NCBI GenBank assembly: GCA_024403995.1
Contig: JAKSQT010000003.1
Location: 19,629 to 83,628 of the forward strand
Direction: 5' to 3'
DNA from: Ruminococcus sp.
GTDB taxonomy: Bacteria; Bacillota; Clostridia; Oscillospirales; Ruminococcaceae
DNA length: 64,000 nt
Made by a program: the position numbers and the translations under genes. The notes beneath the pieces were generated by a model, which did not search any database, was not told where the DNA came from, and saw only the letters and a program-made list of their open reading frames with translations. Shown here piece by piece: positions 5,226 through 35,468 of this stretch; position 1 is the stretch's first letter, and each line of letters opens with the position of its first letter.

Positions 5226-5402
5226 AAATATTATTCTATCATAAAACTGTATTTATTTCAATAGGAATCTGAATGGCACATCCTGAATCGTCAACTACGC
5301 TTCCATTGTGAAATATTAACATATTGCCAAGCCGTTTTTCTACGTTTCAATGTCATGATTTTACTTTTCGTCATTTTGTGCACCTAATCTGTATTTTGTG
5401 GG

Positions 5403-5432
5403 TTGAAAGTGAATATTTTGATGTGGTATAGT
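5403..5432 (+). promoter_or_regulatory. Putative sigma-A promoter for the xylanase gene
   Basis: TTGAAA (5403-5408) and TATAGT (5427-5432) are 18 nt apart, about 90 nt before the xylanase start. Match to consensus is moderate. The rest of the 5226-5519 gap is AT-rich and shows nothing else. Confidence 0.45.
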
Positions 5433-5519
5433 ATTCTTATAGCTGAAATGAATCGTTATGGGATGATATATAATTAATATATTATATAAAATCCTAAATT
5501 TACTAAAGGAGGAAAAAGT

Positions 5520-9353: not shown

Positions 9354-9386
9354 GTTTTTTCCATATTTCTGTCATACGTTTTGCAG

Positions 9387-9414
9387 AACCGTACCTTTCG
9401 GGGTACGGTTTTGC
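9387..9414 (+). terminator. Terminator after the xylanase gene
   Basis: The perfect 9-bp stem AACCGTACC (9387-9395) / GGTACGGTT (9402-9410) has only a short T run after it. It overlaps the leader of the next gene (GTG at 9433), so it may act as an attenuator rather than a full stop. Confidence 0.6.
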
Positions 9415-9432
9415 GCATTTGGAGGCAAGTAA

Positions 9433-10119: not shown

Positions 10120-10299
10120 TAAATTATATGTCAATACTGCACAAAATAATTGCCGCTGTTTGCGTACCGTTTTTCTTATGTTAACCACGATTAACATGGC
10201 GATATTATATATTTTTAGTCAGTTTTAACGTATATCAGGCTGTTTTGTACCTGAAATAGTAAAAAAAACATTGAAAATAAAAAAAAATCTCTCTATATG

Positions 10300-10328
10300 T
10301 TGACTTATCAGAGCGAAAATAGTATAAT
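10300..10328 (+). promoter_or_regulatory. Sigma-A promoter for serC-serA
   Basis: TTGACT (10300-10305) and TATAAT (10323-10328) are 17 nt apart, giving a leader of about 85 nt before the serC ATG. The near-consensus match suggests strong expression. Confidence 0.85.
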
Positions 10329-10420
10329 TATAAATGTATGGCAAATACTACTGCTCTGATGGTGCTCTTTGCTTTCAGAACAGAATAAATTTAATATTAT
10401 ATATGGAGGTATATTTTACA

Positions 10421-11503: not shown

Positions 11504-11594
11504 TTGAATAATTCAGGGGATAGTTCCGGATAATTGCGGAACAGACTGCCTCATGACAGTCAAAAATTTGATTTTTGAAAAGAGGTTTATTGAA

Positions 11595-12755
11595 ATGTAC
11601 AATATTCAGACATTAAATAAGATTTCTGCTATCGGTACTGATATTTTCGATAAGAGCAAATATGCTATTTCAGATGACTGTGCAGCACCTGATGCCATTA
11701 TGGTAAGAAGTGCTAAGATGCACGATATGCAGTTCGCTGACAACCTTCTTGCTATTGCAAGAGCAGGCGCAGGCGTAAACAATATCCCTGTTGACCGCTG
11801 CGCTCAGGAGGGTATCTGTGTATTCAATACTCCGGGTGCTAACTCAAATGCTGTTAAGGAACTTGCTATCTGTGCTCTCCTTCTTGCTTCAAGAAAGATC
11901 ACAGAGGCTGCTGCATGGGCTGCTTCACTCAAGGGCACACCTGATGCTCCAAAGACAGTTGAAGGCGGCAAGTCAATGTTCGTAGGCCCTGAGATTGCAG
12001 GCAAGACACTCGGTATCATCGGTCTTGGCGCTATCGGCGGAAAGATCGCAAATGCTGCTGATGCTCTCGGCATGAAGGTTATCGGCTATGACCCATACCT
12101 CTCAGTTGGCGCTGCTCTCCACCTTGTACCTTCTGTAAAGATAGTTACAGATATCAACGAAATTTATGCAAACTGTGATTACATTTCTATCCACGTTCCT
12201 TATACTCCTCAGACAAAGAATACGATCGATGCTGAGCAGATCGCTATGATGAAGGACGGCGTTCGTCTTATCAACCTCGCAAGAGGCGAGCTTATCAACA
12301 GCCAGGCTGTTGTTGATGCTATTGCTTCAGGCAAGGTTGCAAAGTATGTTACAGACTTTGCTGACGATATCGTTCTTGGCGTTGAGAATATCATCGTTCT
12401 CCCACACCTCGGAGCTTCAACTCCTGAGAGTGAGGACAACTGTGCTGTTATGGCTGCTGAGGAGCTTATCGAATACATCGAAAACGGTAATATCAAGAAC
12501 AGTGTAAACCTCCCTAACGCTTCAATGAACGCTGTAGGCACAAAGGTCTGCATCATTCACAAGAACGTTCCTACAACAATTGCTTCTATCACAACTGTTG
12601 TCGGCAATGAAGGTCTTAACATTGAAAACATGGTTAACGCAAGCAAGAAGGATTTTGCTTACACAATGCTCGATGTTGTTGGTGATATCCCTGCAACTGT
12701 TGAGGGCAAGATCAACGCTGTTGACGGTGTTATCAAAGTAAGAATTATCAAGTAA
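11595..12755 (+). CDS. serA: D-3-phosphoglycerate dehydrogenase
   Basis: 386-residue NAD-dependent first enzyme of serine biosynthesis. The Rossmann motif GLGAIGGKIA and the signature INLARGELI carry the NAD site; the catalytic His is in LPHLGAST. A C-terminal ACT domain (from about residue 316, VCIIHKNVPTTIASITTVVG) suggests serine feedback control. It is of the short SerA type, without the extra intervening domain. I chose the ATG at 11595 after AAAAGAGG; an in-frame ATG at 11553 has a poorer site. It shares the serC promoter and codon bias and ends at a clear terminator. Confidence 0.96.
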   Translation: MYNIQTLNKISAIGTDIFDKSKYAISDDCAAPDAIMVRSAKMHDMQFADNLLAIARAGAGVNNIPVDRCAQEGICVFNTPGANSNAVKELAICALLLASRKITEAAAWAASLKGTPDAPKTVEGGKSMFVGPEIAGKTLGIIGLGAIGGKIANAADALGMKVIGYDPYLSVGAALHLVPSVKIVTDINEIYANCDYISIHVPYTPQTKNTIDAEQIAMMKDGVRLINLARGELINSQAVVDAIASGKVAKYVTDFADDIVLGVENIIVLPHLGASTPESEDNCAVMAAEELIEYIENGNIKNSVNLPNASMNAVGTKVCIIHKNVPTTIASITTVVGNEGLNIENMVNASKKDFAYTMLDVVGDIPATVEGKINAVDGVIKVRIIK

Positions 12756-12774
12756 CTTATTACTGCAAATAATG

Positions 12775-12804
12775 AAGGCTGCTCTTTCGGGGGCAGCCTT
12801 TTTG
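12775..12804 (+). terminator. Rho-independent terminator of the serC-serA operon
   Basis: AAGGCTGC (12775-12782) pairs perfectly with GCAGCCTT (12793-12800), followed by a T run. It is 20 nt after the serA stop. Confidence 0.9.
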
Positions 12805-12877
12805 CATATATTCAGGGGTGAGGGAATATTATTGAATGACATAAACGCACAAATCCACATCGAAAGGACAAAATACA

Positions 12878-13387
12878 TTGAGGATAAAATTCCCGAAAAT
12901 CAAAGCAGAATTTTCGTTTTTTGCATTTGCGGCACTGATCTTTCTGATGAAAGACAAATATACAGCAAGCGGCTTTGTAATGGTCTGCATTCTGCATGAA
13001 TTAGGTCATCTTGCCGCAATCTTCATATTAGGCGTAAAAATAAAAATGGTGAAACTCAGCGGCTTCGGCATAAAAATAGAAACCGAAAAAAGCGGCATAG
13101 TCCCGATTTACCGCAGTATTCTCATACTGCTGTCAGGACCAGCCGCTAATATTATTCTGTATATTCTGCTCGGATTTTCCGGCGTATATCACCAGTTCGC
13201 CGTTCTCAGCCTTGCCGCAGCCGTTTATAATCTTCTGCCCTATCCACAGCTTGACGGCGGTTCAGCAATTGAACTGCTGATAACAGGTTCGGTTTATGAA
13301 CGTGAACTGCGTATCATACTGAAAATCGTCAGAATTTGCATTCCGTGTGCCGTTTTATTTATAATGCTGTATGAGCGGCAATTCTGA
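12878..13387 (+). CDS. M50 family site-2-type membrane metalloprotease
   Basis: 169-residue polytopic membrane protein with the zinc motif HELGH (LHELGHLAAIF) and the second M50 motif NLLPYPQLDGG, whose Asp completes the metal site. It resembles the SpoIVFB branch in size and order, but without a C-terminal CBS domain. Start is a TTG at 12878, nine bases after GAAAGGA. Function is unknown; SpoIVFB itself cleaves pro-sigma-K during sporulation, and no sporulation locus is seen here. The last 29 bases overlap the 3' end of the convergent alcohol dehydrogenase gene, leaving no room for a terminator between them. Confidence 0.85.
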   Translation: MRIKFPKIKAEFSFFAFAALIFLMKDKYTASGFVMVCILHELGHLAAIFILGVKIKMVKLSGFGIKIETEKSGIVPIYRSILILLSGPAANIILYILLGFSGVYHQFAVLSLAAAVYNLLPYPQLDGGSAIELLITGSVYERELRIILKIVRICIPCAVLFIMLYERQF

Positions 13388-14540
13388 ATATTTCAGTAAC
13401 ATCGTCTGACGAAAGCTCAACAAAGCCGCCTGTTTTGCCGTCACCAAGACCAAGTTTATCTACAAGTTTCGGGATATCCTCCTCTTTAGCGCCAAGCTGT
13501 TCAAAATTGACAGGCATACCGATACAGCTCAGGAAGTTACGGAAACACTGAATACCTTCAATTGCTGTAAGTTCAGGGTTAACGAAATTCATTTCACAGC
13601 CCCATACTCTTACTGCCATTTGTGCAAAACGCATAATGTCATGCTTGTAAACAAATTCCATCCAAGAAGGCATGATAACTGCAAGACCTGCGCCGTGAGC
13701 ACAGTCATAAAGTGCAGAAAGCTCATGTTCGATCTTGTGGCTGTTCCAGTCCTGACTTCTGCCAACTCCGACGATATCATTATGAGCAACTGTGCCTGCC
13801 CACATGATGTTCGCACGAGCCTCGTAATTGCCCGGATCGGCGATAACTCGTGGAGTTTCCTTTATCATAGTCATAAGAAGTGCCTCGCAGAGACGGTCTG
13901 TGACTTCAACTTCCTGTGTATTTGTAAAATATCTCTCGAAAATATGAGCCATGATATCCGTAGCACCGCAGGCTGTCTGGTATGCAGGCAGTGAACAGGT
14001 AAGCTCAGGGTTGAGGATGGAGAAACGTGGGCGGAGAAGGTCTGAGCCGACATCACGCTTGAAACTGCCTTCTTCTTTGGTGACAACAGATGCGCCCGAA
14101 CCTTCGCTTCCTGCGGCGGCAATGGTGAGGACAGTACCAACAGGCAGAGCCTTTTCAACTGTTTTGCCTGTGCCGTAGAAATCCCAGAAATCACCGTCAT
14201 ACGGTACACCAAGAGCAATTGCCTTTGATGAGTCGATGCATGAACCGCCGCCGACTGAAAGAATGAAGTCAACGTTTTCTTTACGGCAAAGCTCAATGCC
14301 CTTATAGATGAGAGTATCCCTTGGATTTGGCTGTACACCGCCGAGTTCTGTATATGCGATGCCGCTTTTTTCGAGAGATGCCTTTACATGGTCGATAAGT
14401 CCCGACTTAACTGCCGAGCCTGAACCATAGTGAATGAGCACTTTTGTTCCGCCGTATTTTTTGACCATTTCGCCTGCCTGATTTTCGGTTTCCTTGCCGA
14501 AAATAAATTCAGTCGGGCTGTAGAACTGAAAATTATCCAT
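13359..14540 (-). CDS. Iron-containing alcohol dehydrogenase (butanol dehydrogenase type)
   Basis: 393-residue group III NAD(P)-dependent alcohol dehydrogenase, probably reducing aldehydes to alcohols in fermentation. The NAD loop is GGGSCIDSSKAIALG. Metal ligands appear as Asp and His in ATDIMAHIFE and two further histidines in IEHELSALYDCAHGAGLAV. An SD AAAGGAG precedes the ATG. It lies 2 nt after the stop of the reductase gene upstream, so the two form an operon. Native substrate is not readable from sequence. Its 3' end overlaps the M50 gene by 29 bp on the opposite strand. Confidence 0.92.
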   Translation of the reverse strand: MDNFQFYSPTEFIFGKETENQAGEMVKKYGGTKVLIHYGSGSAVKSGLIDHVKASLEKSGIAYTELGGVQPNPRDTLIYKGIELCRKENVDFILSVGGGSCIDSSKAIALGVPYDGDFWDFYGTGKTVEKALPVGTVLTIAAAGSEGSGASVVTKEEGSFKRDVGSDLLRPRFSILNPELTCSLPAYQTACGATDIMAHIFERYFTNTQEVEVTDRLCEALLMTMIKETPRVIADPGNYEARANIMWAGTVAHNDIVGVGRSQDWNSHKIEHELSALYDCAHGAGLAVIMPSWMEFVYKHDIMRFAQMAVRVWGCEMNFVNPELTAIEGIQCFRNFLSCIGMPVNFEQLGAKEEDIPKLVDKLGLGDGKTGGFVELSSDDVTEIFRIAAHTAL

Positions 14541-21870: not shown

Positions 21871-22133
21871 AGTTCAATTGGTACAACTTACTAATTTAAT
21901 TTTGAAAAACGAATTTCTTTTATTAATAAAGTTTAATAATATGCTGCAAAGCACAAACATTATCATGCAAATAAGATGTAACACAAGGAATAATCTACAT
22001 TTTGTATATTAGCATAAAATTATTACTGTTTACTGTGACAAAAATATAAAAAGAGACACTATTACATATGTTTATTGATGCAAATTTCAATAAACATATT
22101 ATTTGTTTTATTATTGCGGAGGAAATTTTTATT
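21871..22133 (+). other. Long 5' untranslated leader of the pilus operon
   Basis: About 260 nt separate the predicted transcription start from the first ATG with an SD (GGAGG at 22118-22122). The leader is very AT-rich and shows no riboswitch or terminator that I recognise. A frame opening at 22068 runs in phase into the first gene but has no SD. Confidence 0.5.
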
Positions 22134-22481
22134 ATGACCGATAAGGAACTGAGCAAACTCAAACGAACCGAACTTCTTGAACTGATGCTCTATATGCGTG
22201 AGGAGATCGATAATCTTCAGAAAGAAAACGAGGAGCTGAAAAAACAGATCAGCGATAATGGCATAAATCGTTCGATGCTCGAAAAAATCATGAAGGCTGT
22301 ATGCCGTGATGATGAGCCTGAAAAATCAGATGAAAATGTGAAAGCAGCTCTCCCTGAAAATGATGATGAGATATCTGCTGAAAAAACAGATATTACCGTG
22401 GACAGCGGTGAATCTGAAACAGCGGAAACAACAGAAAATATTGAAGAAACAGGCGAGGAAAACAGTAATGAAAAAGGCTGA
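22134..22481 (+). CDS. Small acidic coiled-coil protein, first gene of the pilus operon
   Basis: 115 residues. Residues 1-45 form an amphipathic helix or coiled coil (LKRTELLELMLYMREEIDNL and following heptads). The C-terminal half is strongly acidic and rich in Glu, Ser and Thr. No signal peptide is present, so it is probably cytoplasmic. The start at 22134 is set by GGAGG 11 nt upstream. It overlaps the signal peptidase gene by 14 bp, implying translational coupling. No family is recognised. Its position suggests a role in pilus secretion or control, but this is inference from context. Confidence 0.7.
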   Translation: MTDKELSKLKRTELLELMLYMREEIDNLQKENEELKKQISDNGINRSMLEKIMKAVCRDDEPEKSDENVKAALPENDDEISAEKTDITVDSGESETAETTENIEETGEENSNEKG

Positions 22482-23064
22482 GCTGAAAAAATCAATAAAT
22501 GAGCTACCCTCAGCCAAGCAGCTTGAACAGGAACTGAACAGTGTGAGATACCGCAGGAATTTTGTGAAGATACTCGGTAATACAGTTGCTTCACTTCTCG
22601 TTGTTGCGGCGGCAGCGACACTGATAGCTATGCTGTTCCTGCCTTTCCTGAGAGTCACAGGCTCAAGCATGACTCCAACATTATATAATGATGAAATGAT
22701 CGTCTGCTCAAAACGAAGCAATTTCAAATCGGGAGATGTTGTTGCATTTTACTATAACAACAAGATACTCCTGAAACGAGTTATCGGAACATCAGGCGAC
22801 TTCATAAATATTACCGAAGACGGAACAGTTTATCTCAACGGAGAAATTCTCGATGAACCATATGTCGAGGACAAGGCTCTTGGTGAATGTGACATTCCGC
22901 TTCCTTATCAGGTTCCCGACAACAGAATTTTTGTAATGGGTGACCATCGTTCAGTCTCAGTTGACAGCCGTTCAGTATCAGTCGGTTGCATTGCTGACGA
23001 ATATGTTATCGGAAAAGTTATTTTCCGCATATGGCCGCCCGAAAAAATAGGCACAGTACAATAA
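22468..23064 (+). CDS. Signal peptidase I of the pilus operon
   Basis: 198-residue membrane-bound serine protease. One N-terminal hydrophobic helix (about 35-60) precedes the catalytic Ser in TGSSMTPTL and the catalytic Lys in LLKRVIGTSGD; the GDHR motif (VMGDHRSVSVDSRSVS) closes the fold. The ATG at 22468 overlaps the previous gene by 14 bp with GAGGAA just ahead. Dedicated signal peptidases (SipA/LepA type) are known in streptococcal pilus islands, so this one probably processes the pilins or helps assembly. Both catalytic residues are present, unlike some inactive SipA proteins. Confidence 0.92.
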   Translation: MKKAELKKSINELPSAKQLEQELNSVRYRRNFVKILGNTVASLLVVAAAATLIAMLFLPFLRVTGSSMTPTLYNDEMIVCSKRSNFKSGDVVAFYYNNKILLKRVIGTSGDFINITEDGTVYLNGEILDEPYVEDKALGECDIPLPYQVPDNRIFVMGDHRSVSVDSRSVSVGCIADEYVIGKVIFRIWPPEKIGTVQ

Positions 23065-23132
23065 AGAATACAATATCCAACAATAGATCTTGTTTCTATC
23101 TGAACAATTGCTTTTTCAAGGAGGTGACAGTG

Positions 23133-26100
23133 TTGAAAAGATTTCAGTCTATTATCCAGACTTATCTTAATGACCACGAAAAACATAAAAAACAATTAGC
23201 AGTTTTACTTGCATTATCAATACTTGTCTTCTTTACTGTACCGCTTGGTCTTATGAAACCGGCAAAAAGTATGACAAGTCCGAAAGTAAGCCCTGTTACA
23301 CCTGAAATACCGGTTGTACAGCTTAATTATACCGGCAGTGACGGACGTGAAAAGGTCACAAATGCTGCCGATGCTGACGGAAATATCGTTGACGGAATTA
23401 TTTACAGCCCGCAAGAGGCAGACCTCATTACCCTGTTTTTCGGAAACAAGGATGATTACAGCGGATACAACATGACTCTTGACGATGCGCTTAATCTTTC
23501 CAAAAGCACATATTTCCTCGGTCTTGCAAGTGACTTCTGTGCATTTGTTGAGAACGATTTTACTGCATCTGCTGCTGACTGTGAGGGACGTATCGCAGCC
23601 GGAGGAGATATCAGTTTCAAAGGCGAATGGAATTATCAGATAGGAAGCGGCGACTATGCATCAATGACTGCCCTCAGATATACTGATAATTATTCTAACG
23701 AAACAGTAAAAGAGACAGGCAATGTAGTTTCCGGATATGCCCATGTAATATGCGGCGGAAAACTTTACAGAATCAATCATCTGTCCACAGGCAAGGGCAG
23801 ACAGAGTGACTCAAATATGCATAAGTATTCAGGCGGCGCTCTTACTGTTTACTATGACCTTGATGAAGACGTATTCAAGCGCTTTCTCGTAGGCGACGTT
23901 GCAGGTTCACTTCATCTCAGCGATGAAAAAGAGGATATACCATTCTCAATAAGTCATAAGCACGAATATCCCGGTGAATGCGGCGACAATTGTACCCACG
24001 ATTATCTTGGAAATGTAAACGAACTGGCTCAGATGTATGAATATCCTGACCTTAAAAAAGTCATCACTTCAATATTCGCAACACTCAGAAGCCGTTCTGA
24101 TACACTTTACAGCATCGGCGGCATCCCTGCAAAGGAAACAAGCGGAAATTCAATTCTGTTTGAAGCTCCTGAGGGAACAACCGACAGCACAATTTATTTC
24201 TATCTTCCTGAATGGAAATTATCCTATAATGAAGTAAGATTCAAGAATATCCCTGAAGATGCACATATCGTCATAAACTGCGGCAATGAAGGCGAGGTAA
24301 AGATCCAGCACGGCGGCACAGTAAAGACATATTTCGTAAATTCAAACAATCAGATAATAAAGGATATATCCAATCAGGGCGGTAACTCATCAAACAACAG
24401 CAAGGATTCCGAAAGAATTATCTATAATTATCCAAAGGCTACAAATCTGGATATATCATGCAACTATAACGGAACTATTCTTGCTCCGAATGCTGATGTA
24501 ACATCATCATTCAACTGCGAAGGTCACCTTTCCGGTGCGCTTGTCGCAAAATCTTTCAACGGCGGTCTTGAATTCGGTTACAGACCATACCGTGGAACAA
24601 GCAGTATCGTATCACTTAAATCAGGCTATATTGTTCCTGTAGATAAGATATGCGCCGACACAGTAAACAGCTTTGTACAGAATGCCAAGCTTGCAGTATA
24701 TAAGTGCGATGCATACGGCAATCTCACAGACAGCGTTTTCGAGTGGACAAGCGGCAATGGCTCACAGTATGTTCCGTTCCCGTCAATGATAGACTTCTCG
24801 GGCGGTACTGATTATCTGAATATGCAGCCTGATGCTTCATTGAATATGTCTCCGCCAGGCGGAAAATATTCAGGCGGCAATCTGCTTAACAGCAAAAAGA
24901 GCAGTGATGCAGATGAAAATAACGAAGAAGAATTGACTGATGAAATTGAAGTCACCGAACCCGTTACAGAAGAAACTACGGAGGAAATGACTGCGGAGAC
25001 TACAGAAGCCGACGCAGAAGAAACAACCGTAGAAACATCCGAAACTGCGGCAGAGGAAACAAGTATCGAAGTTACCGAAACAGTAACGGAAGAAATTGTG
25101 ACAGAAGCAGCATCTGCTGATGATGAGGAGATAATTGAGGCTGAATTCAATGGGGAAAGTCCTGAAACTATCGATGTGCTTGCGGATAGTCCGAAGTACA
25201 AGACATTCACTCAGAGATATGTCATCAAGGAGACACAGACTCCTGAAGGCTATTTCACAGTTGAGAATCAGGATAAATACGTGACTGTAAAGGAAAAGGT
25301 TCTTCTTGGCAGCGAAAATATCGCAGTCATGACAAAGGATAACAAGAACTATTATTATCCGAAGAAATACACGGTCACAGTCACTGTTGACGGCGCAGGT
25401 TCATGGACAGCCGACATCGATGACAGTAAAATGTACGGCAGCACCAATAAGAGCCGTGTTATCACTTTCCCTGACAAAAATGATAAATTTGAGATATTCG
25501 TTGATGACAACAACAGCAATATCATAAGCGCAGTATATAATGACAGCGCAAATATTGACTGTTCAAAAGCGTATATTATCCCGACGGGAGTGAATAATTA
25601 TTATTTCGATCCCGATATGGAAATGATATCTTTTGTTTCTGATATGAATGTTAAAATTGAAAACCGTCCGGGACTGCTTTTCCAGAAAGTCGATGAAACA
25701 GGAAAGGTTCTTGTTGATACTTACAAGAAAGATGTTAACGGAGACTATGAAAAAGACAGCAACGGAAATTTAATTATTGATCAGGAAGCACCAACGGTTC
25801 AACTTATTACATTTGATAATTATGCAATGAGTCCATATGATCTGCATCCAATCAGCACTTTTAAAGGAAGTCTGCAAATTGATCCGCAAGATCTTGATTC
25901 AGGTAAAGTTTATATGCTGTATGAAAATCCAAATAATACAGAAAACTGCGGATATCACAGTTCGGATGGTTTGTTTTTTGTTTATGACAATACCAGACCA
26001 ACTGAATTGCAAGTAGGATATATTGAAAATATTGGATTTGATGATATTACCGGTACTTATTATTTGCGGAATCCTGAAATAAAAAATATATGTGAATCAA

Positions 26101-29100
26101 ATGTAGTTAAATTTGTAAACAACAAAATATACGGAGCATCAATAACCATAGAAAAAGAAGGTCAAATTAAGGGCAGTTCAAGCACATTTAGTTTGACGGG
26201 TGCAGAATTTTCTTTGTGGTCTGAAAAAGGTGAGCTTATTTGTTCGGGATTAAAACAGGATGAAGAATTTGGAAAGAATCCTGTATTTTCAAAATTAAAT
26301 AATGCATATGTACGAAACGGAGAATTAAAAGAAGGTAAATATTACCTTACAGAAGATGTTCTTCCGGCAAAAAGCGGATATAAAATTATTAATCCCGGAA
26401 AAATATATTTTGATGTTAAACATTCTGGTTTACTGTATACAATAGATATAGGACATTTGAAGTACCAGAAAGTTGAAATGGGAAAAGTGAATTTAGGATG
26501 GGCATGGGAATATTATCTCATGTCTCCTAATGGCAGTCCAATGCGTGAGCCAACAAATAAAGATACTATTCCAAATGTCAAATCAATTGATGTTTATTCA
26601 ACTGTAAAGGCAGACCAGTTCTGGATTCCTCCTGATGCAAATGGAAATGATAAAGGAACTGCAAATGCAGCTTCGCTTTATTCTGACAGTAAAGTGACAA
26701 TAGGTGGAAAGCAGTATTATCATTTTAAACAACCTGTTACATATGATCCACCTATTGATTTAAGTCAGTGTAAATTCTTTATAAATAGTAATGATGTTGA
26801 TATTATAATCAGAGCAACAACTGACAATGAAGCAGATGGTGAATCAGAAGGAATGGTTTATTACTATGGTGAACCTGATAGTTCATGGAATCTTAGTGAA
26901 AGTCTTGGTACAGGTAAAGCAAGTTTTAGACTTGTTGCTGGCGGAGGCTGTAAAATAATTGTAAAAAATGAATGTGAAACAACAGGCTCAACGACATTAA
27001 CAGTAAAGAAAAAGTGGGTCGGAGATGAAGCTGTTTCTGATATTTACAGACCTAAAGAAATTTATGTTGAGTTGTATTATAAAGGTACAAGTGCTCCACG
27101 TTCAGCCAACAATCCTTTGATAGCTGCTGATATGGAAGGCGGAACATATTATTCAACTATTACATTGAACGAGGAAAATAACTGGACATATTCCAAAACT
27201 TTTTCAGCAACCAGTTCAAGTAGACTTTATGCTTGGTATTTTAAGGAAGTTGGCAGCAAGGATAATTATACCGTAAGTTATTCAGTAGAAAAGGAAAAAC
27301 CAGAAGACAAGGAAGGAATAGAAGTTATCACCAACACGCTGAATAACATATCATTGAAAGCCAAAAAGAACTGGACTGGATATGGCAATAATTCAAGCTT
27401 TATCCCTGAAAGCTTAACAGCAACGCTTCAATGGAAAAATGCAAGCGGAAACTGGGAAGAAGTTCCGGGTAAATCAACGGTTATTCTCAGAAAATCCAAG
27501 AATTTCGAGGAAACTATCAGAAACTTGCAGGCAGGACGTGAATATCGTCTTGTTGAGACAAATGTTCCAAGCAACTGGATATGTACAAACCCAGACAATG
27601 CGGCAACACCTGCTAGCGGCGAAATGAAGCTGACCAACAAATTTGTAACAGGTGCTCTTGAACTGAACAAGGCGTGGGAAAACGATACTGCTGACACAAG
27701 ACCTGACTCGATCAAGGTCGCACTTTACCGGGCGGTACGCTATCCGTGGCCGACAGGTCAGGAACTCAAGGGTACGGACGACAGCGTTACATCAGACTAT
27801 GCAAGACTTCTCCAGTATTCGCTTTACTTCTATGACGGAGTAATGTGCGGAGATGATGTAGGTAATAAGAGTGCATATTCATGGCGCAGCAAGTGCCATT
27901 CACAGGATGATGACGTTGGCGGAGTGACCGGCGGCTTCCATGACGGTGAAGACCATGTTACATATGGATTGCCGACAGGTTATTCAGCTTCAACTCTTGG
28001 CTGGATGCTGTACGAATACCGTAACGAATGCGACGCACTCGGACAAACAGACCATTTCAGAACAATTCTCGATCACTATGCTGAATTTATCGACAGCAGC
28101 GTGAAAATTGAGAACGGAGCAGTTTCAGAGCTGCTTGTTCAGAAGGGCAAACCGTCAACCGATCATCTGTACTGGGGCACACCGGAAGCGCAGGAAAATG
28201 ACCGTACAGACGAAATGAAGTGGCTCACTCCTGCGGACAAAATGGGCGGCGATATAGCGGCAGAATATGCTGCGGCACTTGTTCTCAGTTATCTGAATTT
28301 CTATGATGCAAATTCACCTGATGCAGAAAAATATGCAGGATATCTTGAAAAAGCAAAACTGCTCTATACTTTCGCACAGGGTAAGGACGCATACAACGAA
28401 CAGTACTGGAACAGAGAGACCTATCCTTCGGGAAGTACAGATGATGATATTGCATGGGCGCTCGTATGGCTTGCTGTTGCAGACCCTGACAATTATAAGA
28501 CAGCGGCAAATGATTTGCTGAATGGACAGAATGCAGCGTTAAGCCAGTCATGGGACTCTGTAATGAATGCGGCATTGGTAGTAAATGCGGCTCATCTCGG
28601 CGGAAACTGGTCAAATATTGCAGGAAATATCAATAGTTATATCTTAAACGACGATTATCTGAATTATTCAGGTTCAAACAATATCGGCGTTGCAAGATAT
28701 AATACAGGCTATCAGATGATAGCTCTTGCGGCAGCTAAGAATAACGCAGCAGGTATTAATGCCGATGCTGTTAAAGCTTGGTGCAAGGGACAGATGAATT
28801 TCATTCTCGGTGATAATAACTATTACATCGATAACGAAGACGGCAGACAAAACGGCATCTGTTTCGTAAGCAACTTCAGCGAGAACTCAGTCCAGAAGCC
28901 GTTCTTCCGTGCAGGAAGCGGCATGGCAGTGGATATGCTGACGGCTGATGACCAGAGCGTTATCAATAGCTATGCACAGGACAGAAATCGTCTTATCGGC
29001 GGTCTTGTAGGCGGTCCACCGTCAGAAGTAACCGAACCTGACAAGAATACAGGAAAACTGGAGGCTGAGTACAATGATGTAAGATCTGACAAGACAAGAA

Positions 29101-30782
29101 ACGGAATAGGTACTGACTATAACGCTAACCTCATCGGTGCGGCAGCAGGTCTGTATTTCTTCTACGGAACGGGTCATACATACGAAATACCCGGTATTCC
29201 TGATGAATTCCAGTATCTTGAACCCGATACGGGCAGTTCAGGCGGAGGTGCACCGACATATAATGCAAATCCTTTCGTTCATTATTATGACGGTGATACT
29301 GAAACGACTGCTGAAACAACAGTTGCTGAATCGGCTGTTACCACAACCGTGACCGCTGAAACAGTCACAACTGAAAATGTAAAGACAGTTTCACAGCAGT
29401 TCAGCTCATATCTCAATAATCCGTTCAGCTTTGTTAATCTTAATGTTATTAGGGTTAGGGCTGGAAGTGATTATACTATAACAGCTCCTAAATTTAGTAC
29501 AAAATATGATATTCCGTCTGAGTATCAGGACGGCGTTGTTGGAATTGATATGTATTTTAATAGTGGAGCAAATAATGGAAATGGACGATTTGTTATTAAT
29601 AGTTATGAATATCAAAGAGAATTTAACTTACAAAATAATTCATCAAAAGTATCATTTTCAATTTCAGATATTAAAGTCAGCTATTTAACAATATATCAAG
29701 ACTGGCCGGGCGATAATAATTTTTCAATAAACAGAGTTGTTTTGCATTATGGAAATGAGCCACCGCCCACAACAACTACAACAGCGGCTCCTGAGCCAAC
29801 GACAGAACCTACAACATCTTCAACGACAGCTTCAACAACTTCTTCAACAACTTCTTCAACAACAATCCCATCAGTTCCGGCAATACTCAACGCATCACCT
29901 ATCCAGGTTCACGAAGGCGGCAGAATAAAAGTTAAGACCAATATCACCACAGGCGTGAGCATAGTTGCAACGACACAAGATCCGCCGTTCACTATTGAAA
30001 AGGACAACGACAACATCTACTATGTTGTCGGCAAACAGGGAGCGGCAGGCTCAGAAGGCTCGATAGTTGCAGTAAGAAGCGGCACGGAATCTTCACCGTG
30101 TACAGTTAAGGTAATACCTTCCCTTACATTGACCGGAGACGTTTCCGAGATGATAAGAGGCGAGGTAAGACAGTTTACAGTTGGAAACGCCATAAACGGC
30201 GGTTCAATAACATTGACAACAAGTAATGACAAAATCATCAGTGTAGACAACGACACAGGAAAAATTACAGCAGCAGGCTTCGGCAGTGCAGTTGTGACAG
30301 CTACGGATATTGACGGAACATCCATAAGAATTAATCTGAAAGTAAGAACCCAGCCGGCAGTACCGGACATTCCCGAATCGAAAGAATTCATTGGCTATTA
30401 CACGCTGACAAGCGCCAATATGACACAAGATGGCAAATGGAAGCTAGACCTTGACGAAATGCTCTTTACCAGTGAAAAAGGCGATCCTTATTATTACTAC
30501 ATCGAGGAAGTAAATGAAAAAGGCGAACCTGCAGAGTATATCGAAGGTCAGGGCGATATAAGCTATGTGCCGTTTGAATATGATCATGGCTATGAACTTT
30601 CAATGACAAGTGGTAATCCGACGATACTTTCAGTAGCGAATTTCGCAGTGCCGGCGATCACAGGTGTATTCCCGTCAACGGGCGGTGAGGGAACACGTAT
30701 CTACACAGTAACAGGTGCAGCAATTGCATTCTGTTCAGCAGCCGCCTATATACTGTTTAAAAAACGTCGTAAAAAAACGTAA
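23133..30782 (+). CDS. Giant pilus tip adhesin with an embedded GH9-like domain
   Basis: 2549-residue surface protein. Start is TTG 23133 or GTG 23130, behind AAGGAGGTG (23118-23126). In order: signal anchor (about 16-36); choice-of-anchor-A-like domain (about 115-490, CEGRIAAGGDISF); acidic Thr/Glu linker (about 605-656); SpaA-like region (about 1003-1100); two Cna-B domains (about 1285-1405 and 1405-1505). A third Cna-B starts at 1508 (Lys1513), breaks after about 1534 and resumes near 2420 (Glu2459, Asn2503). The break holds a GH9 domain (about 1546-2020), a beta-rich module (about 2089-2208), a Thr linker and a Big-like region (about 2245-2410). GH9 keeps Asp1604 and Asp1607, but the catalytic Glu is Gly1991 and HHR is FFR (1924-1926). 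Sorting signal FPSTGG at 2513, then a membrane helix and Arg/Lys tail. Probably a fibre-binding pilus tip. Confidence 0.88.
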   Translation: MKRFQSIIQTYLNDHEKHKKQLAVLLALSILVFFTVPLGLMKPAKSMTSPKVSPVTPEIPVVQLNYTGSDGREKVTNAADADGNIVDGIIYSPQEADLITLFFGNKDDYSGYNMTLDDALNLSKSTYFLGLASDFCAFVENDFTASAADCEGRIAAGGDISFKGEWNYQIGSGDYASMTALRYTDNYSNETVKETGNVVSGYAHVICGGKLYRINHLSTGKGRQSDSNMHKYSGGALTVYYDLDEDVFKRFLVGDVAGSLHLSDEKEDIPFSISHKHEYPGECGDNCTHDYLGNVNELAQMYEYPDLKKVITSIFATLRSRSDTLYSIGGIPAKETSGNSILFEAPEGTTDSTIYFYLPEWKLSYNEVRFKNIPEDAHIVINCGNEGEVKIQHGGTVKTYFVNSNNQIIKDISNQGGNSSNNSKDSERIIYNYPKATNLDISCNYNGTILAPNADVTSSFNCEGHLSGALVAKSFNGGLEFGYRPYRGTSSIVSLKSGYIVPVDKICADTVNSFVQNAKLAVYKCDAYGNLTDSVFEWTSGNGSQYVPFPSMIDFSGGTDYLNMQPDASLNMSPPGGKYSGGNLLNSKKSSDADENNEEELTDEIEVTEPVTEETTEEMTAETTEADAEETTVETSETAAEETSIEVTETVTEEIVTEAASADDEEIIEAEFNGESPETIDVLADSPKYKTFTQRYVIKETQTPEGYFTVENQDKYVTVKEKVLLGSENIAVMTKDNKNYYYPKKYTVTVTVDGAGSWTADIDDSKMYGSTNKSRVITFPDKNDKFEIFVDDNNSNIISAVYNDSANIDCSKAYIIPTGVNNYYFDPDMEMISFVSDMNVKIENRPGLLFQKVDETGKVLVDTYKKDVNGDYEKDSNGNLIIDQEAPTVQLITFDNYAMSPYDLHPISTFKGSLQIDPQDLDSGKVYMLYENPNNTENCGYHSSDGLFFVYDNTRPTELQVGYIENIGFDDITGTYYLRNPEIKNICESNVVKFVNNKIYGASITIEKEGQIKGSSSTFSLTGAEFSLWSEKGELICSGLKQDEEFGKNPVFSKLNNAYVRNGELKEGKYYLTEDVLPAKSGYKIINPGKIYFDVKHSGLLYTIDIGHLKYQKVEMGKVNLGWAWEYYLMSPNGSPMREPTNKDTIPNVKSIDVYSTVKADQFWIPPDANGNDKGTANAASLYSDSKVTIGGKQYYHFKQPVTYDPPIDLSQCKFFINSNDVDIIIRATTDNEADGESEGMVYYYGEPDSSWNLSESLGTGKASFRLVAGGGCKIIVKNECETTGSTTLTVKKKWVGDEAVSDIYRPKEIYVELYYKGTSAPRSANNPLIAADMEGGTYYSTITLNEENNWTYSKTFSATSSSRLYAWYFKEVGSKDNYTVSYSVEKEKPEDKEGIEVITNTLNNISLKAKKNWTGYGNNSSFIPESLTATLQWKNASGNWEEVPGKSTVILRKSKNFEETIRNLQAGREYRLVETNVPSNWICTNPDNAATPASGEMKLTNKFVTGALELNKAWENDTADTRPDSIKVALYRAVRYPWPTGQELKGTDDSVTSDYARLLQYSLYFYDGVMCGDDVGNKSAYSWRSKCHSQDDDVGGVTGGFHDGEDHVTYGLPTGYSASTLGWMLYEYRNECDALGQTDHFRTILDHYAEFIDSSVKIENGAVSELLVQKGKPSTDHLYWGTPEAQENDRTDEMKWLTPADKMGGDIAAEYAAALVLSYLNFYDANSPDAEKYAGYLEKAKLLYTFAQGKDAYNEQYWNRETYPSGSTDDDIAWALVWLAVADPDNYKTAANDLLNGQNAALSQSWDSVMNAALVVNAAHLGGNWSNIAGNINSYILNDDYLNYSGSNNIGVARYNTGYQMIALAAAKNNAAGINADAVKAWCKGQMNFILGDNNYYIDNEDGRQNGICFVSNFSENSVQKPFFRAGSGMAVDMLTADDQSVINSYAQDRNRLIGGLVGGPPSEVTEPDKNTGKLEAEYNDVRSDKTRNGIGTDYNANLIGAAAGLYFFYGTGHTYEIPGIPDEFQYLEPDTGSSGGGAPTYNANPFVHYYDGDTETTAETTVAESAVTTTVTAETVTTENVKTVSQQFSSYLNNPFSFVNLNVIRVRAGSDYTITAPKFSTKYDIPSEYQDGVVGIDMYFNSGANNGNGRFVINSYEYQREFNLQNNSSKVSFSISDIKVSYLTIYQDWPGDNNFSINRVVLHYGNEPPPTTTTTAAPEPTTEPTTSSTTASTTSSTTSSTTIPSVPAILNASPIQVHEGGRIKVKTNITTGVSIVATTQDPPFTIEKDNDNIYYVVGKQGAAGSEGSIVAVRSGTESSPCTVKVIPSLTLTGDVSEMIRGEVRQFTVGNAINGGSITLTTSNDKIISVDNDTGKITAAGFGSAVVTATDIDGTSIRINLKVRTQPAVPDIPESKEFIGYYTLTSANMTQDGKWKLDLDEMLFTSEKGDPYYYYIEEVNEKGEPAEYIEGQGDISYVPFEYDHGYELSMTSGNPTILSVANFAVPAITGVFPSTGGEGTRIYTVTGAAIAFCSAAAYILFKKRRKKT

Positions 30783-30872: not shown

Positions 30873-32624
30873 ATGAAAAAGACTAACAGATTTATCGCAA
30901 TGGCAGCAGCTCTCACACTTACAGCAAGTTCAATGATTCCTATGTTTGCATTTGCAGGTGGTGAAACACCATCAGGCCAAATTGTAATCAGCAATTCAAC
31001 ATCAGACGACGGCGTTCATTCATACGTTGCATATCAGATCTTCAGCGGCGTATATGATGAAGGTACAGGCGGCCTTAAAAATATAGCATGGGCTATTCCT
31101 GATAAAAGAACCGAAAATAGCGCAGAAGTAAGTATTTATACTGATCTTGTGGCTATAGGCATGAAAAAATCTGACAACTCAGCTTTTACAAACGTAGATG
31201 AAGTAGTTGAGGCTTTAAGTGTAATAACAACCGATGATGCTAAACTGACAAAGGATTTTGCTGCTGTTGTTGCAAAATATGTCGATGCGACTAAGGCTAA
31301 AACAGCAACATCAGGAACAATATCAGGTCTGGCTGACGGTTATTATCTTGTTGAAGATTCAGCAAATCCGACAGCAGATACAAGTGGTAATAATTCAGGT
31401 GCTATGACAAGATATATTTTAACTGTTGTTAATGGATCTACAACTACGGTTACTTCAAAATCATCTGCACCTACTGTAATCAAGAAGGTCAAGGAAGAAG
31501 ATTTAGCCGGTGACGAAACCAAAGAAACAACAGCTTTTGCAGGCAGTGATGCATATGATTTAGGCGACGGATATAATGATATTGCTGACTATGATATCGG
31601 CGATGATGTACCGTTCAAGGATTATGGTACACTTCCAAGCACATATGATGATTACACGCAGTATTTCTATGAGTTTGAAGACTGGCTCGATAAGGGTAAA
31701 TTTGGTACACCTGAAAATGTAAAGGTTTGCATTGACGGCAAGGAGGTTACTGATAAGGTAACAATAACAGATACATTTAATACTGACGGCAAGATCAAAT
31801 ATACATTTAGCGATCTGAAACAAATAGATAAAGATGACGAAGGTAATGATCTTACAGTTACAAAGGATTCAATAATTACAGTTGAATATACAGCAGAGCT
31901 TCAGACAACAGCTGATCTCGGAACGGCAGGACAGGCTTCAAGCGTAAAGCTTAATTATTCAAGCAACCCTAACGAGAGCACAGTAACTCAAAAGGGTTCA
32001 ACTCCTGTAGACGGTGTAGTTGTATTTACATACGGCATTGATATCAAGAAGGTTGATGATAAGGAGAATAGTCTTGCCGGCGCATATTTCGCAGTATACA
32101 AAAAGGTAGGCGAAAAGAAGTATTATGTTAAAACCGATACTGACGGTAAAGTTACAGGCTATACAGAGACTGCACCTGTAAAGACAGATAATGCATGGGG
32201 AAATACTACTAATGGTGTATTCCTTTCAACGACTTCAGGAAATATTATAATTGAAGGTCTTGACCACGGAACATATTACATAACAGAGCTTGAAGCACCT
32301 GAACATTATTCAAAGCTTGCCGCTGACGAAGCTGTAACAATAACAGCTACAATGGCAACAGACAGACAGGCTTGGACATTTAATTCCGCAGGCGATACAA
32401 ATAAAACGGCTTTAACAGCATTTGCAATTGATAAAGCAGTTGAGACAACTCTTGATAGTGATACCGGTAAGGGTACTGTTAAAATTGTAAACACAAAAAC
32501 ATCATCACTCCCGTCAACCGGCGGCATAGGTACAACATTATTCTACATCGGCGGCGGCTGCATGGTAGGTATCGCAGGCATTCTTCTTATCACAAAGAAG
32601 CGCACAAAGAATGCAAATAACTGA
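30873..32624 (+). CDS. Major pilin (isopeptide-forming, LPXTG-anchored fimbrial shaft protein)
   Basis: 583-residue secreted pilin. Residues 1-28 are a signal peptide ending in AFAGG. An N-terminal domain (YVAYQIFSGVYDEG) is followed by a segment with the candidate pilin-linking Lys near residue 196 (TSKSSAPTVIKKV). Next come a fimbrial D2-type isopeptide domain (DIGDDVPFKDYGTLPSTYDD) and a Cna-B-like domain (IDIKKVDDKENSLAGAYFAV, ending TVKIVNTKT). The sorting signal is LPSTGG, with a hydrophobic helix and a KKRTK tail. The set matches SpaA/EbpC-type shaft pilins, which the class C sortase next door would polymerise. An AAAGGAG site precedes the ATG. Hairpins flank the gene on both sides. 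Confidence 0.93.
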   Translation: MKKTNRFIAMAAALTLTASSMIPMFAFAGGETPSGQIVISNSTSDDGVHSYVAYQIFSGVYDEGTGGLKNIAWAIPDKRTENSAEVSIYTDLVAIGMKKSDNSAFTNVDEVVEALSVITTDDAKLTKDFAAVVAKYVDATKAKTATSGTISGLADGYYLVEDSANPTADTSGNNSGAMTRYILTVVNGSTTTVTSKSSAPTVIKKVKEEDLAGDETKETTAFAGSDAYDLGDGYNDIADYDIGDDVPFKDYGTLPSTYDDYTQYFYEFEDWLDKGKFGTPENVKVCIDGKEVTDKVTITDTFNTDGKIKYTFSDLKQIDKDDEGNDLTVTKDSIITVEYTAELQTTADLGTAGQASSVKLNYSSNPNESTVTQKGSTPVDGVVVFTYGIDIKKVDDKENSLAGAYFAVYKKVGEKKYYVKTDTDGKVTGYTETAPVKTDNAWGNTTNGVFLSTTSGNIIIEGLDHGTYYITELEAPEHYSKLAADEAVTITATMATDRQAWTFNSAGDTNKTALTAFAIDKAVETTLDSDTGKGTVKIVNTKTSSLPSTGGIGTTLFYIGGGCMVGIAGILLITKKRTKNANN

Positions 32625-32747: not shown

Positions 32748-33632
32748 ATGAGTAAAAAAGCCGATATTATAACTTCAATACTATTAATACTAATGATACT
32801 TGTGGGGATCTCCGTGATGTGTTATCCGATGTTCAGCAACTGGTGGAATCAGAACAAGGCTTCACACGTTATCTCGAACTATCAGGATGCAGTTGCACAT
32901 CTTGATGATGAGGACTATGAAAAATATTTCATCAGAGCAAGAGAATATAATAAACAAATTTATGAACTTGACAATCCGTTTACCGAATATGACCGGGTAA
33001 GAGGCTATGAAAGCTTTCTTGATGTCACAGGAACCGGAATTATGGGATTTATCTCTATTCCGGCGATAAGAGTCGAACTTCCTGTGTATCACGGAACAAG
33101 CGAAGGCGTTCTCAATATTGCAGTAGGGCATATGGAGGGTTCATCACTTCCTGTCGGAGGCGAAAATACTCACGCCGTTCTTTCGGGACACCGTGGACTT
33201 CCGTCAGCAAAGCTTTTCACTGACCTTGACAAGATCGTTGTGGGCGACTATTTTACACTGAATATCCTCAACGAAGTTCTGACATACGAGGTCGAGGATA
33301 TAAATATTGTTGAGCCTGATGATATGGAAAAGATCAGGATAATTCCACAAACCGACAAGGTCACTCTTGTGACCTGCACTCCATACGGAGTAAACACTCA
33401 CAGACTGCTTATCCGCTCAAAGCGTATTGAAACTGAGGCAGAAAAAATCGCAGTAAAAGTTTCCTCAGATGCAGTTCAGGCAGATATGTTCCTGTCTGTT
33501 CCGATAATAGCATTTCCGTTTCTGCTTCTGCTGCTGATATTCTGGGCAATAAGCGGAAAAGTCAGAGGAAAACGCATCGCAGTTCTTGAGGACTACAAGG
33601 TAAGACAAAACTATAAGAAGAAATTCAGATAG
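32748..33632 (+). CDS. Class C sortase (pilin polymerase)
   Basis: 294-residue membrane transpeptidase that links pilins through the threonine of the sorting signal. N- and C-terminal hydrophobic helices (about 8-30 and 245-268) flank the catalytic domain. The triad is His148 (LSGHRGLP), Cys210 (TLVTCTPYG) and Arg219 (NTHRLLI). Both the C-terminal anchor and the TLVTCTPYG...HRL motif are features of class C. The SD GAGGAGG lies just before the ATG. It follows the shaft pilin, as in other Gram-positive pilus islands. Confidence 0.95.
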   Translation: MSKKADIITSILLILMILVGISVMCYPMFSNWWNQNKASHVISNYQDAVAHLDDEDYEKYFIRAREYNKQIYELDNPFTEYDRVRGYESFLDVTGTGIMGFISIPAIRVELPVYHGTSEGVLNIAVGHMEGSSLPVGGENTHAVLSGHRGLPSAKLFTDLDKIVVGDYFTLNILNEVLTYEVEDINIVEPDDMEKIRIIPQTDKVTLVTCTPYGVNTHRLLIRSKRIETEAEKIAVKVSSDAVQADMFLSVPIIAFPFLLLLLIFWAISGKVRGKRIAVLEDYKVRQNYKKKFR

Positions 33633-33648: not shown

Positions 33649-34773
33649 ATGTCGTTGAAAAAACAAAGAATATTTACGCTGATGATGTGCATGGCAGTAT
33701 TCCTTTCAGTATTTGCAGGAGTTATCGTTCCGAATGCCGATGCTGCCGCAGACAGTGAACTGAAACTTGTCTGTGTCAACGATAAAACACCGCTTTCGGG
33801 AATGAAATGGAAGATATACCGTGTCGGAGAAATGGTAAACGGAGAATATATTCTTTCAGGGGATTTTGCACAGTATCATGTTGACCTTATCGATATGTCA
33901 AAGGAAAATATCAGTGCAGCAGCTCAGACACTGGAAAGTTATGCCATTGCTGACAGGAAAACTCCGGCAGCCGCATCAGTAGCTGATAAGGACGGAGAAG
34001 TCAGCTTCAAGAACATTGAAAGCGGTCTCTACCTTGCCCTCGGTTCACTTTATGAGGCAGGACCTTATTACTATGATCCTTCGCCTATTCTTGTTGATGT
34101 CGGCGAGAATACAGTAACAAGCTATGATGCTTACCCGAAAATTGAACGTGCCACCCTTACAGAGGAGGTCGCTTCATATACCGTAAGAAAGGTATGGCTT
34201 GACAATGATGACAGCTATGAAGTCAGACCTGTATATGTTACAGTTGATATCTATAAGGACGAGGAACTGTTTAAGACTGTTACACTTAATGAGGCTAATA
34301 ACTGGCAGTACCGCTGGGAATGTGAAAACAAGCTGACTGAATGGCTTGTTATCGAAAGAGAGATCCCGGCTGAATATGAAGTCAGAATAGAGTATAACGA
34401 AAAGCAGTATCTTATCCGCAACCGCCACAATTCCGTTGAAAACTGGGGCGATATCATACAGACGACTACTGCTGTCACAGGCAATCCTGTGACTACCGTT
34501 ACAACTACAGATGAAGTGACAGGCAAGGCAACAGGAAGCAATCCTGATACAGACGGAAGTATCACAACATCTTATCTTTCAACTTCAACATCATCAACTT
34601 CATCCACAAAGCAGAACAGCGTAGATATAACAACTCAGAAACAGTCAGGTTCAGGCGGCGGAAAGCTCCCTCAGACAGGACAGCTCTGGTGGCCAGTAAT
34701 ACCACTGGTATTCGGCGGCGCAGTATTTATCGCTGTAGGATTGATGCTGAGACCAAAAAAGGATAGAAAATGA
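33649..34773 (+). CDS. Minor or basal pilin with Cna-B domain and LPQTG anchor
   Basis: 374-residue secreted protein with a signal peptide (1-34, ending ADAAAD). The N-terminal domain (LKLVCVNDKTPLSGMKWKIY) looks like a prealbumin/SpaA fold. A Cna-B domain follows at about 178-262 (YTVRKVWLDNDDSYEVRPVY, then LVIEREIPAEYEV and YLIRNRHN). A Ser/Thr-rich wall-spanning stretch leads to the sorting signal LPQTGQ, a membrane helix and RPKKDRK. The sorting signal differs from the PSTGG form of the adhesin and shaft pilin, so another sortase may anchor it. Its stop overlaps the next start (ATGA). Confidence 0.9.
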   Translation: MSLKKQRIFTLMMCMAVFLSVFAGVIVPNADAAADSELKLVCVNDKTPLSGMKWKIYRVGEMVNGEYILSGDFAQYHVDLIDMSKENISAAAQTLESYAIADRKTPAAASVADKDGEVSFKNIESGLYLALGSLYEAGPYYYDPSPILVDVGENTVTSYDAYPKIERATLTEEVASYTVRKVWLDNDDSYEVRPVYVTVDIYKDEELFKTVTLNEANNWQYRWECENKLTEWLVIEREIPAEYEVRIEYNEKQYLIRNRHNSVENWGDIIQTTTAVTGNPVTTVTTTDEVTGKATGSNPDTDGSITTSYLSTSTSSTSSTKQNSVDITTQKQSGSGGGKLPQTGQLWWPVIPLVFGGAVFIAVGLMLRPKKDRK

Positions 34774-35468
34774 AGAAAATAATCTGGAAACTGATGGTAC
34801 TTTGCGGCACAGCAATGATAATGGGAGCTGTGTGTATATGCGTTACCAATATAAAACAAAGCAATGAAGCATTCAGACAGTCGAAGGCAGTGCTTTCGGA
34901 ACTTAAACAAGTTATTCCTGAACCTCAGCCTGCAACAGAGACCGACTCTGAAAATGTGATTGATTCATACAATAAACCTATGGTAAATCCTGCGGATGAT
35001 CTCTTTCTTCCATATGAAAAGAAGACAGAGAAGGAGAAAGATAAGCCCGATGCAGAATCACCACCCCCGATTGAGATCGACGGACGATACTACTGTGGTT
35101 ATCTGAAATTGCCTGCACTCGGAATTGAACTGCCCGTAATGGACAGCTGGAGTTATCCGAATTTGCAGACATCTCCATGCCGCTATAGCGGAAGTGCAGA
35201 AAGTGATGACATTGTGATTGCGGCACATAATTACAACAGTCATTTCGGCAGAATCAAGGAGCTTTCCATAGGTGATGAAATAATCTACATTAATTCAGAC
35301 GGACTGTATTACAGGTACAAGGTTTGTAATATGGAATATATTGACGGATATGATATTGACAGAATGTTTGACGGAAATGAAAACGAGTGGGATCTGACAT
35401 TATTCACTTGTACACTTAGCGGACAAAGCAGAGTGACAATAAGAGCAGACAGAATCAGAGTCAGCTAA
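34770..35468 (+). CDS. Second sortase (class B/D-like, wall-anchoring candidate)
   Basis: 232-residue transpeptidase with one N-terminal membrane helix (about 7-28) and no C-terminal helix. The triad is His153 (AAHNYNSHFG), Cys214 (TLFTCTLSG) and an Arg at 222 or 226 (SRVTIRADR). The lack of a C-terminal anchor and the shorter length set it apart from the class C enzyme. It overlaps the minor pilin by 4 bp, so translation is coupled. It may attach the basal pilin, and with it the pilus, to the cell wall; this is inference. Class is uncertain. Confidence 0.88.
   Translation: MKKIIWKLMVLCGTAMIMGAVCICVTNIKQSNEAFRQSKAVLSELKQVIPEPQPATETDSENVIDSYNKPMVNPADDLFLPYEKKTEKEKDKPDAESPPPIEIDGRYYCGYLKLPALGIELPVMDSWSYPNLQTSPCRYSGSAESDDIVIAAHNYNSHFGRIKELSIGDEIIYINSDGLYYRYKVCNMEYIDGYDIDRMFDGNENEWDLTLFTCTLSGQSRVTIRADRIRVS

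Follow-up and report, generated by a model that had tools for sequence, protein, structure and literature searches.

Cellulase-like GH9 domains in giant adhesins of presumed sortase pili in Ruminococcus, and one member that has lost its catalytic acid

What might a cellulase-like domain do in a pilus adhesin once its catalytic acid has gone? The question is raised by a giant gene of Ruminococcus sp. that lies within a 64,000-nucleotide stretch of DNA, referred to here as the window. Its product, a presumed tip adhesin encoded on the forward strand (23133..30782), is an LPXTG protein of 2,549 residues when counted from a TTG codon at 23133. The longest open frame extends from 23031 to 30782 on the same strand, with ATG 23031 as its mechanically assigned start. 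The aaggaggtgacagtg stretch, a strong ribosome-binding stretch, is located 5' of TTG 23133 and, judged from the sequence, the TTG appears the likelier start of the adhesin. An earlier note on this DNA used a residue numbering that matches the TTG start.

The adhesin begins with a hydrophobic N-terminal stretch and contains a pAdhesive_15, or choice-of-anchor A, domain at residues 129–482 (23517..24578; PF20597 at 1.1e-32 and TIGR04215 at 8.5e-29). A CnaB-like stalk region (residues 1280–1545, 26970..27767), delimited by alignment with relatives, precedes the GH9 domain. The stalk aligns with the SpaA and CnaB parts of the related proteins, and the Pfam Cna_B model matches 15 of the 16 GH9-bearing tips scanned; the one it misses is the window protein. 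The adhesin further contains the GH9 domain, threonine-rich parts and a candidate carbohydrate-binding module (CBM). The translation then reads through an FPSTG sorting motif of the LPXTG type (30669..30683).

The adhesin gene is part of a cluster, all on the forward strand, in which a signal peptidase, the GH9 adhesin, an LPSTG backbone pilin, a class C sortase, an LPQTG pilin with a Cna_B domain and a second sortase follow one another. The signal peptidase I frame (22360..23064; TIGR02227 at 117.4 bits, cut-off 47) lies just upstream of the adhesin gene, and a similar gene is found 5' of the adhesin in many relatives. Its start is overlapped by a small frame with a coiled-coil look (22068–22481) that has no Pfam match. 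The backbone pilin (30873..32624) matches SpaA at 6.3e-10 and Gram_pos_anchor at 2.9e-5, and scores 63.4 bits with the SpaH/EbpB model, under its cut-off of 95. It is followed by the class C, pilin-polymerising sortase (32748..33632; NF033745 at 265.3 bits, cut-off 160), by a minor or basal pilin identified from Pfam and its sequence (33649..34773) and by the second sortase (34770..35468; PF04203 at 2.3e-16). In the translations, each of the three sorting signals, FPSTG in the adhesin and LPSTG and LPQTG in the pilins, leads into a hydrophobic segment and a basic tail. The earlier note had placed the GH9 domain in a pilus adhesin, and the LPXTG protein within a sortase-pilus cluster that includes a class C sortase bears this out. 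By analogy, the window protein is presumably the large non-polymerising subunit of a sortase-assembled pilus, its position at the tip being suggested by the size of the adhesin and the make-up of known pili.

The GH9 domain itself (residues 1556–2003, 27798..29141, forward strand) is matched by PF00759 at 1.2e-58. The score of 199.9 bits against a cut-off of 27.7, over profile positions 1–443 of 444, excludes a chance match and agrees with the earlier description of a GH9 pattern that runs from start to end; the motifs quoted in that description are all present in the translation at their stated place. A phmmer comparison with PDB sequences aligns 1ia6 and 3wc3 end to end and 2yik in three stretches (E 1.9e-45). 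A check for the (alpha/alpha)6 barrel yielded a helical GH9 model of low confidence (pLDDT 46, from rows for the window, L039 and L040 only), for which the best Foldseek matches are the GH9 structures 2yik (E 4.3e-6) and 1ia6 (E 7.0e-6), with an rmsd above 10.

In the phmmer alignments with 1ia6, 3wc3 and 2yik, Gly1991 (codon GGA, 29103..29105) stands opposite the acid Glu of the NEVA motif, just as had been claimed, and the family alignment places it at the same position. The active site was surveyed at 19 positions in an alignment of 23 pilus-type and 48 secreted GH9 domains, from which 13 shorter loci duplicating the same proteins and six partial frames below 530 aa were left out. The window domain keeps 11 of these positions (D1604, D1607, H1678, W1681, Y1764, R1855, Y1856, R1926, D1982, Y1996 and N1997). 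The two base aspartates are therefore retained, as the earlier note had it, in a base motif that reads D1604-G-E-D1607 (27942..27953) and is DAGD in all 22 other tips. The eight deviating positions comprise five that are near-uniform in other GH9s (A1605, G1606, W1851, H1924 and E1991) and three that are more variable (H1925, Y1987 and A1993). Besides the loss of the acid, the substitutions are A1605 to Gly, G1606 to Glu, W1851 to Ile (28683..28685; Trp in 70 of 70 other compared GH9s), Y1987 to Lys and A1993 to Gly. The H-x-R motif, which we take to be the active-site His signature of GH9 (PROSITE pattern), is likewise altered, and the reported FFR in place of HHR is indeed present as F1924-F1925-R1926 (28902..28910). 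The first His of this motif is found in 21 of the 22 other tips, L067 having Gln, and in all 48 secreted domains. The second is His in 14, Phe in five and Tyr in three of the 22 and, since the nearest relatives share HFR or HYR, FFR represents the loss of the first His added to a common change. The claim that the cleft is kept thus stands only in part, in that H1678, W1681, Y1764, R1855, R1926 and Y1996 remain whereas W1851 and H1924 (His in 69 of 70 others) are lost. Both of the lost residues probably lie in the cleft, and the loss of W1851 argues against its having stayed unchanged.

Is the glycine a feature of the family? The earlier note had raised the question of its conservation, and the homologues give a negative answer: the catalytic Glu is present in 21 of the 22 other pilus-type domains and in 48 of the 48 secreted ones, so that Gly as a family trait is ruled out. 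The remaining tip, L077, was not counted for the acid, as its contig runs out short of the motif and its aligned Asn is an end artefact. Since the other assessable tips keep Glu, the acid loss is, from the alignment, private to the window species within the compared set. The acid is also kept in all five other aligned GH9 copies of the same genome (L001–L004 and L006), two further loci, L005 and L007, being without a match and not aligned. Within this assembly the catalytic loss is genuine, and the occurrence of several changes in one active site makes a single base-calling error unlikely. Scattered changes are seen in other tips as well, with Gln at H1678 in L080 and at H1924 in L067, both of which retain the acid Glu. 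In L065 (7918–9465) the start of the GH9 domain is absent, with the query match beginning at residue 93 and seven gaps, and the catalytic residues are kept.

The stronger finding is the family, namely GH9-bearing pilus subunits whose domain looks competent in nearly all sampled members. A genome search with inspection of the loci identifies at least 23 giant GH9 proteins of the pilus type in 22 of 125 Ruminococcus genomes, the 23 being a lower bound counted among the matches listed. In a tree made from core columns only, all 23 GH9 domains group in a single clade (support 100/98), separate from the 48 secreted GH9s, which are the best-scoring loci rather than a full census. A first tree may have included linker columns, and an origin of the clade in these was rejected when the core-only tree gave the same grouping. 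A pilin and a homologue of the window class C sortase adjoin the adhesin in 14 of the 23 tips (the window, L065, L068, L070, L071, L073, L074, L075, L076, L078, L082, L101, L102 and L113). Six more tips are found at contig ends (L066, L069, L072, L077, L079 and L083), and L067, L080 and L081 are GH9 tips with no pilin or sortase gene in the stretch that was fetched. Genome G092 contains two GH9 adhesin copies, L066 and L083, on the short contigs C92 and C97, which represent either two loci or an assembly split.

Pfam scans covered 16 of the 23 GH9 tips and all 18 giant anchored proteins without GH9 that were seen in sortase neighbourhoods. pAdhesive_15 is found in 15 of the 16 and in one of the 18, indicating that the GH9 domain travels with pAdhesive_15. 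The 18 come from a survey of 40 sortase neighbourhoods among the matches listed, in which three showed a giant anchored frame with GH9 and 19, many of them at contig ends, showed no visible one; some of the 18 lie on the other strand beside another sortase. Pfam detects GDSL models in up to four of the 18 and CBM_4_9 in two. A GDSL esterase-like domain is present in one such protein, L119 (G025, 5311–13791), and CBM_4_9-like modules are seen in L106, L120 and L122. In a sample of 394 genomes from across the order, two of the genus among those listed, 14 have a match at E <= 1e-60, and no listed open frame other than that of the window exceeds 1116 aa. Viral contigs were scanned for further GH9 rows and none was confirmed. 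From these sequences, the GH9 domain was apparently gained by the pilus adhesin once, within Ruminococcus, and the wider object looks to be a pilus-linked cellulase that is competent by its residues.

Behind the GH9 domain lies a module of eight predicted strands that is a candidate CBM (residues 2087–2212, 29391..29768, forward strand). A model made from the single sequence of residues 2087–2206 has eight strands and a pLDDT of 61, and its top four Foldseek matches are CBMs, with 4d3l third (E 6.9e-3, TM 0.48), viral coat proteins close behind and nothing at E <= 0.001. Sequence similarity links the module to one in L079 (E 7e-14) and, more faintly, to some in secreted GH9s (L058, 7e-8), and a seven-row profile built from these ranks 4d3l first among PDB sequences, at a weak E of 0.03. 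The structure 4d3l is the CBM of R. flavefaciens Cel9A, which we take to belong to family CBM79, so that from the modelled fold and the profile the window module is possibly a distant CBM79-like module. A search for residue-level literature on Cel9A found none.

Has the window domain simply begun to decay? Its frame is open, without a stop, and the domain can be aligned over its length. Identity between the window and L072 is 56% over 420 residues of GH9 and 55% in pAdhesive_15, compared with 25–38% in the stalk parts. The window and L073 share 53% in GH9, 52% in pAdhesive_15, 32% in the SpaA-like part and 35% in the CnaB-like part, the values between L072 and L073 being 71%, 66%, 55% and 55%, respectively; in the SpaA-like part the window and L072 share 35%. 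Towards L073 the window thus lags by 18 points for the GH9 domain, by 14 for pAdhesive_15 and by 23 for the stalk. Divergence accordingly affects the entire protein and is not clearly greater in GH9. Towards L075 the lags are about equal (50 versus 61 for GH9 and 48 versus 61 for pAdhesive_15). Faster decay of the GH9 domain alone is thus not clearly seen, and the domain is still among the best-kept parts, although the slightly larger lag of GH9 than of pAdhesive_15 towards L073 leaves room for relaxed constraint.

In the tree, the branch length of the window domain is 0.82 and that of L076 is 0.92, yet L076 keeps every catalytic residue, so a long branch alone is not the cause of the losses. 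When each row is left out in turn, the window breaks nine of 70 near-invariant columns, against means of 2.5 in the other 22 tips and 1.5 in the 48 secreted domains. Among the other tips 20 break six or fewer, L065 breaks 10 (seven of them gaps where the domain start is absent) and L077 breaks nine, all at the contig end; of the 48 secreted domains, two distant ones, L003 with 25 and L004 with 15, are alone in breaking more columns than the window does. Five of the nine broken columns, A1605, G1606, W1851, H1924 and E1991, are among the 19 active-site positions, a fraction to which no probability is attached because those positions were picked after the sequence had been seen.

With the proton donor, the H-x-R His and the Trp lost, the window domain is not expected to hydrolyse beta-1,4-glucan through the usual inverting mechanism, and we infer that it has no activity. 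The reading that is likeliest for the window species, with a probability of about one half, is that the altered domain would act as a binding module of the pilus adhesin, in the manner of a lectin. The sequence is most likely that of a dead GH9 kept as part of the adhesin, given the open frame, the lack of a clear GH9-specific acceleration and the possible CBM79-like module behind it. It is rather unlikely, though to be taken seriously, that the inactive domain has no binding role and is a folded spacer in the stalk, nearing loss, with pAdhesive_15 doing the adhering. Such a spacer would be consistent with the loss of W1851 and H1924 besides the acid, with the nine broken columns and the long branch, with a GH9 lag behind its sisters slightly above that of pAdhesive_15, and with the near-constant presence of pAdhesive_15 in the scanned tips. 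It accords less well with an open frame and a fully alignable domain, with a GH9 identity to L072 that matches that of pAdhesive_15 and exceeds that of the stalk, and with the retention of 11 of the 19 inspected positions. A domain that is otherwise intact but has a changed active site appears to fit a binding role somewhat better than disuse. Binding may nevertheless be weakened, as the residues lost at 1851 and 1924 are fully or almost fully conserved in the other domains and are probably cleft residues.

That the domain is still a glycosidase, perhaps on another glycan, is improbable. The acid would have to be replaced by a changed mechanism or by a carboxylate of the inserted loop (residues about 1963–1980), and the insertion before the acid motif does hold several Glu and Asp residues. 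In its favour, the domain retains the two base aspartates together with R1926, Y1996 and H1678, and the GH9 model is of too low confidence to argue against the idea. Yet the normal Glu accompanies an insertion at the same place in L066, L067, L068, L070, L076, L078, L079 and L083, so the insertion is in itself no substitute acid, and the H-x-R His is lost too. That the acid loss is artefactual, or a defect confined to one strain or assembly of a species whose pilus cellulase is normally active, is also quite improbable. The species is represented by one fragmented genome (86% complete, 179 contigs) and all 21 assessable relatives keep Glu, whereas eight of the 19 positions deviate together rather than one, even if H1925 is Phe or Tyr in eight of 22 relatives too. 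For the preferred binding role, the PDB entry 7v0i, whose title describes an active-site mutant with bound cellohexaose, sets a precedent, by analogy, for an altered GH9 that binds. A further structure, 5gy0, has Ala at the acid position in the alignment.

The proposed course of events is thus that a pilus adhesin of Ruminococcus would have acquired a GH9 cellulase domain, of which nearly all sampled copies keep the catalytic residues. In the window species the domain would have lost its proton donor, H-x-R His and conserved Trp in a gene that is otherwise intact. It may now function as a binding module, perhaps jointly with the CBM-like module behind it, and a pilus-borne GH9 of this kind would fasten the cell to a plant beta-glucan, be it cellulose or some other.

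The organism is a cellulolytic type of bacterium. Its genome has 12 GH9 matches including that of the window, two of the other 11 being partial at contig ends, and 77 dockerin matches, so cellulolysis need not rest on the window domain. Only one weak cohesin match, below cut-off, was found; ruminococcal cohesins may escape the model used. Elsewhere in the window are a GH10-CBM4_9-dockerin-GH43-CBM6 gene (5520–9353), a GDSL esterase with a weak dockerin match (187–1263), a small dockerin protein (61476–62102) and a BspA-type leucine-rich repeat protein with a partial dockerin match (62253–63947).

Compared with GH9 endoglucanases of the Cel9M and CelT kind (1ia6 and 2yik), the window domain is alike in its full length, its base aspartates and most of its cleft motifs, and differs in the changes of acid Glu to Gly, of H-x-R His to Phe and of the conserved Trp to Ile. 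The protein that bears it is also of the LPXTG type and has no dockerin according to Pfam. The R. flavefaciens Cel9A CBM, at the profile E of 0.03 and fold E of 6.9e-3, may be a distant relative of the module behind it. With Gram-positive sortase pili of the SpaA/SpaH type the locus shares a class C sortase, an LPXTG backbone with a SpaA domain, an LPQTG minor pilin, a large LPXTG adhesin and a signal peptidase; it differs in the GH9 domain of its adhesin and in a backbone under the SpaH/EbpB cut-off.

Other means of holding on to cellulose have been described in ruminococci. As Rakotoarivonina is said to have reported in 2002 and 2005, type IV pili take part in the cellulose adhesion of Ruminococcus albus. 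Those pili are similarly proposed to hold a ruminococcus to cellulose, whereas the sortase pilus of the window relies on other assembly machinery. The parts of the literature consulted ascribe ruminococcal cellulose attachment both to type IV pili and to scaffoldins of the cellulosome, with CBM proteins (PMC4081043, PMC3723904). In R. flavefaciens, the sortase-anchored scaffoldin ScaE holds the cellulose-binding CttA, and in the consulted parts of this comparative ruminococcal paper sortase is mentioned for ScaE only (PMC4081043). Both ScaE, as described there, and the window locus would provide sortase-based attachment to cellulose; the ScaE route involves scaffoldins, dockerin partners and CBMs, in contrast to a pilus with a GH9 domain. 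No description of a sortase pilus with a GH9 domain was found in the literature searched, which covered few subscription journals.

The gene content points to surface appendages that hold on to plant fibre and may also cut it. A broader view, which can be held only tentatively, is that ruminococci possess cellulase-tipped sortase pili, to which GH9 was joined once and which 22 or more of the 125 species genomes encode. Such pili would both grip cellulose and cut it at a distance from the cell, alongside the cellulosome, and would be pure binders in the window species. The subunit may then be an exchangeable plant-wall tool, as the corresponding subunit of other pili in the genus bears a GDSL esterase or CBM4_9 modules. 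If true, a cellulase domain on a sortase pilus would add one more route of attachment to cellulose, and one that can be tested. The window species, in which the acid is lost, and its sisters, in which it is kept, would moreover form a natural experiment on whether such a pilus must cut or need only bind.
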